This document shows positions 3,348 to 7,374 of a DNA stretch of 64,000 nt, piece by piece. The position numbers and the translations under genes were made by a program. A model generated the notes under the pieces. It was given only the letters and a program-made list of their open reading frames with translations, was not told the origin of the DNA and searched no databases. Within the stretch, counting starts at the first letter, position 1. Every line of letters starts with the position of its first letter. Origin of the DNA: Leptotrichia sp. oral taxon 223. Lineage in GTDB: Bacteria; Fusobacteriota; Fusobacteriia; Fusobacteriales; Leptotrichiaceae. The DNA lies in contig NZ_JABXYU010000001.1 in the NCBI RefSeq assembly GCF_013394795.1, positions 1,178,001 to 1,242,000 of the forward strand, written 5' to 3'.

Positions 3348-5051
3348 CTATTTTATTTTCAACTTCCTATACCTATTCACCGCTCCACAAAATTCCTGCT
3401 TTCTAGGCAATGCCAAATTTCCTGGATGCCCTGTGTACGAAGAAATCGAATCAAGCCCGTCCTTTTCAATCTTTTTATAAATCCTATCAGCCGCTTGCGA
3501 AAGTGTCAATTTTTCATCCAGCACCTTATTTTTAAAATAGTCAATCATTACAGCAATGCAATTTGTCTGGCTGTCATCCACAAGCTGCTCCAGCCCCGAA
3601 ATGTCGATTAAGTCCTTTCCATACAAAATGCTGTATTTCCCTTTAGCTTTTGTTTTATCCAGTTTTCCTGACTGCGAAAAACTTTTTTTGAGTGGAATTC
3701 GCTGTGTAACTCCTTGAAATTTATCGTTTGAAGAAAATTCCCTTTTATTTTCATCCGATTTTGCAATCTCTTTTGCTTTTTCTGTCACATCTTTTGGCAC
3801 ATATTCATACATCATTATAATGTGATTTGCCACATCAAAATAATCTCCAGATCCACCAACAATCAATATCGTAGAAACTCCAAAATTGTCATAAAGTTCC
3901 TTTACCCTGTCAATAAACGGTGTTATCGGCTCTTTCTCCTTTGCCACAAGTTTTTGCATTCTTCCGTCACGGATCATAAAATTTGTAGCCGAAGTGTCCT
4001 CATCTATCAGAAGTAAAGAAGTTCCATATTCCAGAGCTTCTGCCACATTTGCCGCCTGCGATGTGCTTCCACTCGCATTTTCAGTCGAAAAAGCCCTTGT
4101 ATCCTTATTTTGTGGCAAGTTATTGATAAATCCGCTTATATTCACCTTTTCGACATTTCTTCCATCTTCCGCACGTATTTTTACCGCATCCGATTCAGAA
4201 ATTATAAGTTCTCGCCCATCTTGAGCAATGTGATTGTAAACCCCTCTTTCAAGTGCTGCAAGTAACGTGGATTTTCCGTGATAACCTCCACCCACAATTA
4301 GCGTAATTCCTTTTGGAATCCCCATTCCACTTACTTCTTTACCACTTGGAAGTTTTAACGTAATCTCAAATTTTTCTGGACTTTTAAACTTAACTGCATT
4401 TTTCATAGGCTTGTCTGAAACTCCACTTTCACGTGGAAGCACAGAATCATTAGCCACAAACGCAACAAGCCCTTTTTCCTTCAATATTTTTCTTGCATAT
4501 TCCTGATCCAGCACTAGAATTACCTGCTCATTTAGCGCTCTTTTATTCAAATTATCATAAATAATGGATTTCTCTACAATTTCAGGCAGCTGCTCAAAAA
4601 TAATTTTCTGTGCGGCTTTTCCCATTATCCGTCTTCCTCTGGCAGGCATCCCCATTTCAAACCTCACTTCAACTTTATCTCCCTTTATGAGAACTGAAGT
4701 TCTTTCCAAAATTTCCTGTCCGCATCTGTCAATAAAAATTCTTCCACTTTCCCCAGTTCCTGTACTATCATTCCCACTTTTCTGAATTTCCCTGTAAAAA
4801 TTTCTAGTAAGAAAATCCGAAACTGCAATATTCTTATCCTTCGTATCTGTCAGCTCATAAGGAATCCCGCAAATTTTCCTATCCATTATAACTCTCATTT
4901 TTGAAGGTGGAGCATAAGGATCTGACTGCACATGATCAATCGCAAGAACATACTTTTCAAACCTATATTCCCCTTTAAGCGACTTATACGCCGAATAACT
5001 TTTTCCATCCATTGAAAATAATATTTTTTCTAATTCTTTATAATTTTTCAT
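3348..5051 (-). CDS. ABC-class ATPase domain protein (COG3044 type)
   Basis: A 567-residue cytoplasmic ATPase. The Walker A motif is GGGYHGKST (near residue 255), Walker B is SLLLIDEDTSATNF (near 350), and the family signature region with FINNLPQ and the Thr/Ser-rich loop before Walker B is present. The length is typical of this family of predicted ABC-class ATPases, which have no membrane domain and no firmly known function; roles in nucleic-acid or RNA handling have been suggested. The upstream TTG at 5060 is only 2 bases from AGGAGG, while ATG at 5051 has a spacing of 11, so ATG is preferred. The gene follows the Abi gene by about 40 bases and could be cotranscribed with it. Confidence 0.85.
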   Translation of the reverse strand: MKNYKELEKILFSMDGKSYSAYKSLKGEYRFEKYVLAIDHVQSDPYAPPSKMRVIMDRKICGIPYELTDTKDKNIAVSDFLTRNFYREIQKSGNDSTGTGESGRIFIDRCGQEILERTSVLIKGDKVEVRFEMGMPARGRRIMGKAAQKIIFEQLPEIVEKSIIYDNLNKRALNEQVILVLDQEYARKILKEKGLVAFVANDSVLPRESGVSDKPMKNAVKFKSPEKFEITLKLPSGKEVSGMGIPKGITLIVGGGYHGKSTLLAALERGVYNHIAQDGRELIISESDAVKIRAEDGRNVEKVNISGFINNLPQNKDTRAFSTENASGSTSQAANVAEALEYGTSLLLIDEDTSATNFMIRDGRMQKLVAKEKEPITPFIDRVKELYDNFGVSTILIVGGSGDYFDVANHIIMMYEYVPKDVTEKAKEIAKSDENKREFSSNDKFQGVTQRIPLKKSFSQSGKLDKTKAKGKYSILYGKDLIDISGLEQLVDDSQTNCIAVMIDYFKNKVLDEKLTLSQAADRIYKKIEKDGLDSISSYTGHPGNLALPRKQEFCGAVNRYRKLKIK

Positions 5052-5092
5052 CTTTTTCAATTCCTCCTAATAATCCTCTTTATTTTTGAATT

Positions 5093-6037
5093 TTATTGTT
5101 TATGCCAATCCACTGGAAAATCCATTCTATCCAAAATATCATTTACACTAATAGAATTTAACTTATCTTCTAATTTTGTTACTAAATATTTTAAAGAAGA
5201 AGTAAGATATTCATAATCATTTTTTGACAAAAAAATTTTTAAAACACTATACAAAGTAAATAATTTCTGATTATTCAAAACACGTCCATTTATCAAAGGT
5301 TTTTGTCCAGCAATATGTCCTCTTAAAGTAAAATTATAAAATCTTTCATTATGAGCCGCAACATTTCTAAACAATGAACAAGCATTTAAAAAAGTGCTTA
5401 TAATTTTTATATTTAAATTCAGATAACTATTATAATCATTCTTATAAAGTTTTTTAAAATGTTCCATTACATTTTGCTTGACATCAAGTTCTAAAATATC
5501 AAATAATATTGAAATATTTCCTAATGTTAAAAAATGTATTGTTATCCAAAAAGGAATATTGTCTTTTATTGAATAATGCTTTATTATTTCTTTACTTTTA
5601 TTTATTTTATGTCCATATAATTTAATAAGTACAGATTTTCCCTTCTCATTTAATCTTTCTATATAATTAGATGGATCTAAATATGTTTCTTTGATATTTT
5701 TATCATAATAATCTGAAAAATAATAAGCAATGGCTGTTTTAAAGTATTTTTCTATTTTTGTAAGAAAATTAAAAAATAATATTCTAAGTTCCCCATCGAA
5801 ATCATGAAGAGCTTTTAATTCATTAAAATGTACATTTGGAAAATAAATATCTTCATTATTTCCATCCTTTCCAATTACAAAAGGCTCCTTATAAAAGTTA
5901 ATAATAGAGTAATAGTTATCTCTCATCAAATAAAATTTTGTATTGCTGTCTGTATTCATCCTTTTTCTTTTATTAGGTTCATCTAAACCATTAAGAATCG
6001 CAACCTGTTCATCAAATGTTTTAAATGGCTTATCCAT
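5093..6037 (-). CDS. Abi_2 / AbiF-type HEPN protein (abortive infection RNase)
   Basis: A 314-residue protein with the features of the Abi_2 (AbiD/AbiF) family: N-terminal FKTFDEQVAIL, the Y/F-rich N-terminal helices, and a C-terminal HEPN motif RNVAAH (R224, H229), the R-x4-H catalytic pair of HEPN RNases. Family members cause abortive infection or act as toxins. A strong GGGGAGG ribosome site is 4 bases upstream of ATG. It is preceded by a small-RNA gene with its own promoter and terminator (6060-6174). Published proposals, cited from memory and unchecked, link AbiF-type proteins to the ancestry of Cas13 and to neighbouring noncoding RNAs. There is no CRISPR array in this window. Confidence 0.88.
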   Translation of the reverse strand: MDKPFKTFDEQVAILNGLDEPNKRKRMNTDSNTKFYLMRDNYYSIINFYKEPFVIGKDGNNEDIYFPNVHFNELKALHDFDGELRILFFNFLTKIEKYFKTAIAYYFSDYYDKNIKETYLDPSNYIERLNEKGKSVLIKLYGHKINKSKEIIKHYSIKDNIPFWITIHFLTLGNISILFDILELDVKQNVMEHFKKLYKNDYNSYLNLNIKIISTFLNACSLFRNVAAHNERFYNFTLRGHIAGQKPLINGRVLNNQKLFTLYSVLKIFLSKNDYEYLTSSLKYLVTKLEDKLNSISVNDILDRMDFPVDWHKQ

Positions 6038-6059
6038 AAAATCCTCCCCTTATATATGT

Positions 6060-6085
6060 AAAAAAGCCTCAACAAAGAGGCTTTT
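6060..6085 (-). terminator. Terminator between leader sRNA and Abi_2 gene
   Basis: On the minus strand a perfect nine-base stem AAAAGCCTC / GAGGCTTTT with a six-base loop ends in six U. It lies only 23 bases before the Abi_2 start codon, so it should end most transcripts before the gene; readthrough or antitermination would be needed for expression. Confidence 0.85.
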
Positions 6086-6139
6086 AATACAGTCTATATA
6101 AACCCAATTTTATAAGCATAATATAGAACGATCCTTTAT
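6060..6139 (-). ncRNA. Candidate small RNA in the Abi_2 leader (~80 nt)
   Basis: The transcript predicted from the promoter at 6146-6174 starts near 6139 and ends at the terminator at 6060. It contains a seven-base stem TCTATAT / ATATAGA (6121-6127 with 6093-6099) closing a 21-base loop, then the terminator hairpin. No open frame fits. Position, length and self-contained promoter and terminator suggest an RNA partner or antitoxin for the HEPN protein, or a leader attenuator; that role is an inference. Confidence 0.6.
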
Positions 6140-6145
6140 ATTTTC

Positions 6146-6174
6146 ATTATACCTTCTAAAAATTAAAAAGTCAA
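6146..6174 (-). promoter_or_regulatory. Sigma-70-type promoter of the Abi_2 leader sRNA
   Basis: Minus strand TTGACT (6169-6174), 17-base spacer, TATAAT (6146-6151). Near-perfect consensus. The -35 box overlaps the stop codon of the small ORF at 6171-6314. Confidence 0.8.
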
Positions 6175-6314
6175 GCCTCCATCAAATTCTTTTTTACCAA
6201 TTCATCAACTATTTCTTGATTTAATTTCATAATAAAATCTTGAAAATCCTCTTTTTTATAATATTTTTGAACAATCTTCTTCAGTTGCTCTAATTGTTTA
6301 CATTCATCTTCCAT
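6171..6314 (-). CDS. Small 47-residue protein upstream of Abi_2
   Basis: ATG at 6312-6314, stop TGA at 6171-6173, encoding a charged, helix-prone peptide (starts MEDECKQLEQLKKIVQKYY, ends DELVKKNLMEA). AAGGA lies 9 bases upstream of the ATG. The composition (alternating Lys/Glu with Leu/Ile/Val) suggests an amphipathic or coiled helix. I do not recognise a family. It ends exactly over the -35 box of the Abi_2 leader promoter, so it may be a small gene of the same module or a remnant of a longer antitoxin-like gene. Confidence 0.5.
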   Translation of the reverse strand: MEDECKQLEQLKKIVQKYYKKEDFQDFIMKLNQEIVDELVKKNLMEA

Positions 6315-6364
6315 TCCAACTTGTCCTTATCATAAAATTAAATATTAAAACAATTTTGAATCTC

Positions 6365-7189
6365 TCATAAAATATATCTTTCCAAAAACACCCCAATCCC
6401 ATCACTATTATTATCCTCCGTAATAAAATCTGCCACACTTTTCGTAAGTTTGCTTCCATTTCCCATAACGACTCCAATTCCAGCGTTTTTTACCATGTCA
6501 TAGTCGTTATCTTCATCACCGAATACACATAAATTTTCCATTGACAAGTCATGTAAATCAAGGATTTGCTGCAATCCATAAGTTTTTGAAACTCTTGGAT
6601 CCATGTATTCATAAAGCACACTTGCCGTTTTTAATGAAGCTGATTTATATTTTTCATTTTTAAAGGTTTTGCTTCTTTCAATTACATCTTTCATTGTTTC
6701 AGAATTTGTCATTATCATCAGTTTTTGACGTGGCTCTTTTAAAAATTCCTCAAAATCAAGCACTTTGTATTTCACTCCATCCAGCTCCGCCAAAAGACTA
6801 ATATGCTCATCATCCTTAGGAACACACAAAACTCCCTTATCCGGCACAACAAAATTCACATCCAAATCTTCATAATGCTTTATAATGTCCTTTATAAACT
6901 CCCCAGCCAGCGGATAGGCAATTTTCTCAACATTTTTTGTAAAATCGCAAATTTCAGAACCTCCAGTTCCCACAATCACATCCACATATTTCGCAATTCC
7001 CCATTTTTTCACAAGCTCCTTTACACTATGCATATCTCTTCCCGTGCAAAGCCCAAATAAAATCCCTTTTTCTGTAACTTTTCTAATCACTTCCAATGTT
7101 TTTGGTGAAACAATCCCATTATCTGTCAAAAGTGTCCCATCTATATCACACATAACTATCTTTATTTTCCTAAAATCCTTTTTTTCCAT
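6365..7189 (-). CDS. HAD-superfamily sugar-phosphate-type phosphatase (Cof type)
   Basis: A Cof/IIB-type HAD hydrolase of about 274 residues from this start. Motif I is MCDIDGTLL (nucleophile Asp), motif II is LCTGRD, motif III/IV are the Lys in PRQKLMIM and GDEDNDYDMV. Such enzymes dephosphorylate sugar phosphates, flavin or pyridoxal phosphates in the cytoplasm; the substrate is not predictable. The frame is open to 7312 with alternative ATGs at 7279 (AAAGGA upstream) and 7312; I prefer 7189 because the family begins a few residues before motif I and the extension is a low-complexity Lys/Arg/Glu stretch. Confidence 0.85.
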   Translation of the reverse strand: MEKKDFRKIKIVMCDIDGTLLTDNGIVSPKTLEVIRKVTEKGILFGLCTGRDMHSVKELVKKWGIAKYVDVIVGTGGSEICDFTKNVEKIAYPLAGEFIKDIIKHYEDLDVNFVVPDKGVLCVPKDDEHISLLAELDGVKYKVLDFEEFLKEPRQKLMIMTNSETMKDVIERSKTFKNEKYKSASLKTASVLYEYMDPRVSKTYGLQQILDLHDLSMENLCVFGDEDNDYDMVKNAGIGVVMGNGSKLTKSVADFITEDNNSDGIGVFLERYIL

Positions 7190-7374
7190 AGAAATTCTTC
7201 TTTCTTTAATAAATTTATTTATTTTTTCCTTTTCGGTTATCCTATTTTCCCTTCCTAACCTTCTATCTTCTATATTCATTTTATCACACTTTCCTTTTAT
7301 TTCCCAAATCATTTTTTTGTTAGATAAAGGGGTATTGTCAAATCAAGTGCAGCAAAAAATTTATTCTCAACGTA

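Follow-up and report, generated by a model that had tools for sequence, protein, structure and literature searches.

In the window, the 64,000-nucleotide stretch of Leptotrichia sp. oral taxon 223 DNA analysed here, a promoter, a leader, an intrinsic terminator and an Abi_2 gene follow one another on the minus strand. The initial annotation had placed these four elements correctly without giving the strand. The promoter TTGACT-17-TATAAT (6146..6174, minus; -35 at 6174-6169, -10 at 6151-6146) had been called near-consensus and indeed matches the consensus at 11 of 12 positions. It is one of two such sites within 4 kb; promoter scans are weak evidence alone (32 promoter-like sites vs 21.7 expected by chance), and in relatives the leader RNA is preceded by the same promoter arrangement. 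The predicted small RNA is about 80 nt long (6060..6139, minus), with its start (about 6139) and its end (the T-run of the terminator) deduced from the sequence. The terminator AAAAGCCTC-TTTGTT-GAGGCTTTTTT (6060..6085, minus) had been described as strong, in agreement with the -11.3 kcal/mol given by a fold-based scan for 6085-6060. A pattern scanner of terminators did not list it because the T-run lies partly within the stem. It ends directly before the gene as claimed, the distance to the ATG at 6037 being 22 nt and not 23, and a ribosome binding site, AGGGGAGGA (6042..6050, minus), lies in between. Further upstream lies a 47-aa open frame (6171..6314, minus), and its stop codon and the -35 box overlap. 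This frame has no accepted family match, and no counterpart of it was noticed when the other leaders were read; for these reasons it was dismissed as a possible third component.

The Abi_2 gene, abiF (5093..6037, minus), encodes a HEPN protein of 314 aa with the motif R224-N-V-A-A-H229. The Pfam Abi_2 match has an E-value of 9.4e-32 and scores 111.2 bits against a curated cut-off of 25.6; PADLOC names the protein AbiD (4.3e-43). Among solved structures the only sequence relative is PDB 8VZ6 (2e-8, residues 31-312 alignable), the dimer of Prevotellaceae PbAbiF bound to its ncRNA. A confident predicted model (pLDDT 86, pTM 0.85) also retrieved 8VZ6 in a fold search (3.7e-9), which was the sole match at E <= 0.001. 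The two superimpose with TM scores of 0.73/0.77 and 20% identity in the fold alignment. R224 and H229 align with the catalytic residues R210 and H215 of PbAbiF, and within the RNxxxH motif 13 homologues all keep R224, N225 and H229. Judged by its sequence and its predicted model, the product of this gene is a bona fide AbiF.

The leader had been described as about 80 bases that can fold, with a stem TCTATAT/ATATAGA, which we located at 6127-6121 / 6099-6093. This description stood: leader plus terminator folds better than shuffled sequences (z -3.98), mostly owing to the terminator. The upper hairpin of the window copy alone was not significant against shuffles (z -1.63, p 0.07). Since this hairpin barely beats shuffles, and since about five independent leaders were available for comparison, the case for the RNA is a comparative one. 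Conserved structure upstream of homologues, for which the initial annotation had proposed a search and whose absence it had named as refuting its reading, was found. Homologues in Leptotrichiaceae with 49-55% protein identity have leaders with similar tags and a similar hairpin in which the letters of the stem are changed. The lower stem (6126-6121 paired with 6099-6094, minus) shows compensatory changes at three of its six pairs and no broken pair, counted over about five independent leaders; a seventh pair is present in some leaders only. In the alignment of this stem, 90.5% of the cells are paired, and in slid controls, in which the partner was moved by 1-3 columns, pairing went down to 19-51%. 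On either side of the stem stand the conserved tags GATCG and CTG, and the loops, which differ among relatives, are short (about 6-7 nt). Together these elements make up a conserved core, GGATCGTT + hairpin + ACTGTA (6089..6134, minus), supported by covariation, genome pattern search and fold.

Written as a pattern, GATCGW-CU..A-loop-U..AG-RCUG, this core was found at 13 places in 98 genomes of Fusobacteriota, 11 of them preceding abiF genes or pseudogenes, and the reversed pattern was found nowhere. The pattern was written from leaders already seen; therefore the search tests rarity and location and is not a discovery. The compensated pairs, the failure of the slid controls and the 13 matches vs 0 nevertheless set the leader above chance. 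Hence, on comparative grounds, the leader is a structured RNA that is conserved and has a terminator at its end.

At 27 of 35 near AbiF loci, a terminator-like hairpin ends 8-40 nt ahead of the start codon; the same holds for 8 of 172 control genes drawn from the window and the fetched loci (Fisher p about 7e-20, which is not exact as the loci are related). At least two of the eight positive controls are abiF leaders read from another start. Among 16 more distant Abi_2 genes, only one shows a hairpin of this kind anywhere in the final 110 nt; thus the leader terminator is not general to Abi_2 genes. The distribution of the RNA type agrees with the protein tree: it is restricted to one AbiF clade, which together with its nearest sister has a support of 100/100. 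Because viral and genome contig collections hold few or no close relatives, the close clade is, as far as seen, essentially one of Leptotrichiaceae. Units of abiF and RNA that are near-identical occur in different genera, and this points to recent transfer of the units.

Comparison with Rfam yielded only chance matches for the leader, both at the gathering threshold and at E <= 10. The model of the known abiF RNA family, RF03085, matched neither the leader at E <= 10 nor anything in 33 genomes at E <= 1, yet this model does detect the RNA of phage phiC2. The leader RNA is therefore a family apart from RF03085. By this comparison, the AbiF system at the locus has its own RNA family. A published survey of structured RNAs that names Leptotrichia (PMC8040213) was also considered and set aside; it covers RNAs in front of ToxN, not of abiF.

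The closest known counterpart is AbiF-RCd22 of the C. difficile prophages phi027 and phiC2 (PMC12373285). It shares with the Leptotrichia locus an Abi_2 protein with the RNxxxH motif and the order of one promoter, a structured RNA, an intrinsic terminator, a ribosome binding site and abiF. The RNA made there from a SigA promoter is about 100-130 nt long (PMC12373285), compared with about 80 nt predicted here. RCd22 contains two RF03085 abiF motifs (in phiC2 one above and one below the gathering score), whereas the Leptotrichia RNA is one hairpin of other sequence, and RCd22 lies in a prophage lysis module, whereas the Leptotrichia abiF is chromosomal and adjoins an ABC_ATPase gene. PbAbiF-AbiFr of Prevotellaceae (PDB 8VZ6; Zilberzwige-Tal et al. 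2025), compared here by its protein alone, is alike in protein sequence and fold, despite the low identity given above. ToxIN and classical type III toxin-antitoxin systems likewise have an RNA gene, a terminator and an RNase toxin gene behind a single promoter. However, their toxin has the ToxN fold and not the HEPN fold, and their RNA is a tandem-repeat array; reading the leader RNA by eye revealed a single hairpin and no ToxIN-type tandem repeats. AbiD1 of L. lactis, as cited in PMC12373285, is also an Abi_2 protein with a structured leader and a short, prematurely ended transcript, but its activation, by a phage protein, takes place at the level of translation.

The unit lies in an accessory insert of about 2.1 kb (5110..7247, ends approximate, no strand assigned). 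In several relatives this site is empty: their DNA matches the window to about 5051-5109 and resumes at about 7248, with as few as 12 bases in between. The insert sits between the ABC_ATPase gene and the sequence that in relatives is directly upstream of that gene. Besides abiF and the leader RNA it carries a gene for a HAD-family hydrolase (6365..7189, minus; Pfam Hydrolase_3, 7e-48), for which a search of 32 related genomes at 1e-40 gave no match. From the comparison with relatives, abiF, the leader RNA and the HAD gene were acquired as an insert, and the ABC_ATPase gene upstream of which they lie is conserved. On a 26-kb contig this genome has two more tandem Abi_2 genes (L001/L002, G000:C2:19239-21920; listed with L050 and L055), one with an internal TGA, and it has a broken Abi_2 gene elsewhere. 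The leaders of the tandem genes are of two other sequence types, GTGAACG and GTGGAATGCATG.

The two pattern matches that have no abiF behind them are in the window genome (L080, G000:C1:114243-114289, minus) and in a relative (L082, G015:C1:837515-837561). The former is followed by a candidate defence gene of 344 aa (DUF3644/PADLOC PDC-S19), the latter by a remnant of a DUF3644/PDC-S19 gene. Both copies are intact, with promoter, hairpin and terminator kept. The 47-nt core of the orphan RNA is identical to the core at the abiF loci of two relatives, and its lower stem is identical to that of the window copy. At these places abiF has been swapped for another defence gene or its remnant, and possibly there is nothing to this beyond a recent replacement. 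That the RNA could serve as a stand-alone unit, perhaps a solo antitoxin against other copies of AbiF including that of the window, is conceivable but rather doubtful.

The initial annotation had read the layout as a toxin-antitoxin system with an RNA partner or as an attenuated operon. The identity of AbiF, the conserved RNA with its terminator and the layout in C. difficile support this: as in a type III-like AbiF system, a structured RNA lies between the shared promoter and the toxin gene and is ended by a terminator. C. difficile produces the short RNA, the terminator stops most transcription there, and deletion of the RCd22 RNA raises abiF 17-fold; the RNA binds and neutralises AbiF in trans and also attenuates in cis (PMC12373285). 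From the protein, the conserved RNA, the leader terminators, the restriction of the RNA type to one clade and those experiments on the same layout, with an RNA that neutralises the toxin in cis and in trans, we consider it very probable that the Leptotrichia locus encodes an AbiF toxin on the chromosome and, in the leader, an RNA antitoxin that acts by cis attenuation and trans neutralisation. A single promoter would drive both the leader RNA and abiF. The terminator would halt most transcription and release a hairpin RNA of about 80 nt, and abiF mRNA would stem from occasional read-through. The AbiF dimer would be a HEPN ribonuclease, kept inactive by binding of the free leader RNA. When transcription is shut off, e. 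g. by a phage, the unstable RNA would be lost first, the RNase freed and growth stopped. We infer the short transcript, the binding of RNA to protein, the toxicity, the trigger and an anti-phage role from studied relatives.

Alternatively, the leader could merely limit transcription of abiF, or sense a signal by a switch in structure, and the short RNA would have no function of its own. The strong terminator immediately upstream of abiF fits such a pure attenuator, as does the leader of L. lactis abiD1, which is also cis-acting and bound by a phage protein (cited in PMC12373285). Yet inspection by eye brought up no alternative antiterminator pairing, the GATCG and CTG tags beside the stem are what an RNA that binds protein should have, the orphan copies have been kept where abiF is absent, and the C. 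difficile RNA works also in trans (PMC12373285). Attenuation as the sole function is therefore unlikely. Decay of the cassette, with a layout merely inherited, is suggested by broken abiF copies in several relatives (L042, L043, L045); it is very unlikely for the window, where abiF is full length and motif, promoter, ribosome binding site, RNA stem and terminator are all intact.

Least probable of all, and hardly to be expected, is that AbiF and the leader RNA recognise target RNAs by base pairing, like Cas13. Published work derives Cas13 from AbiF (PMC12737573), and the hairpin loop varies between relatives. However, the loops are short, no spacer-like segment was seen, and the published AbiF RNAs are antitoxins, not guides.

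The link between AbiF and the Cas13 ancestor, which the initial annotation had mentioned, is in the literature, where the review PMC12737573 cites Zilberzwige-Tal et al. 2025 for it. Cas13a occurs together with an abiF that has this leader RNA in two related genomes (G008 with abiF intact, G009 with abiF broken). Read as above, the Leptotrichia locus would add a distinct RNA family to the AbiF antitoxins, in a genus where Cas13a, which is RNA-guided and descends from AbiF-like proteins, occurs as well. Because it has both, Leptotrichia would be a natural genus for comparing the ancestral toxin-antitoxin system with the derived CRISPR effector.
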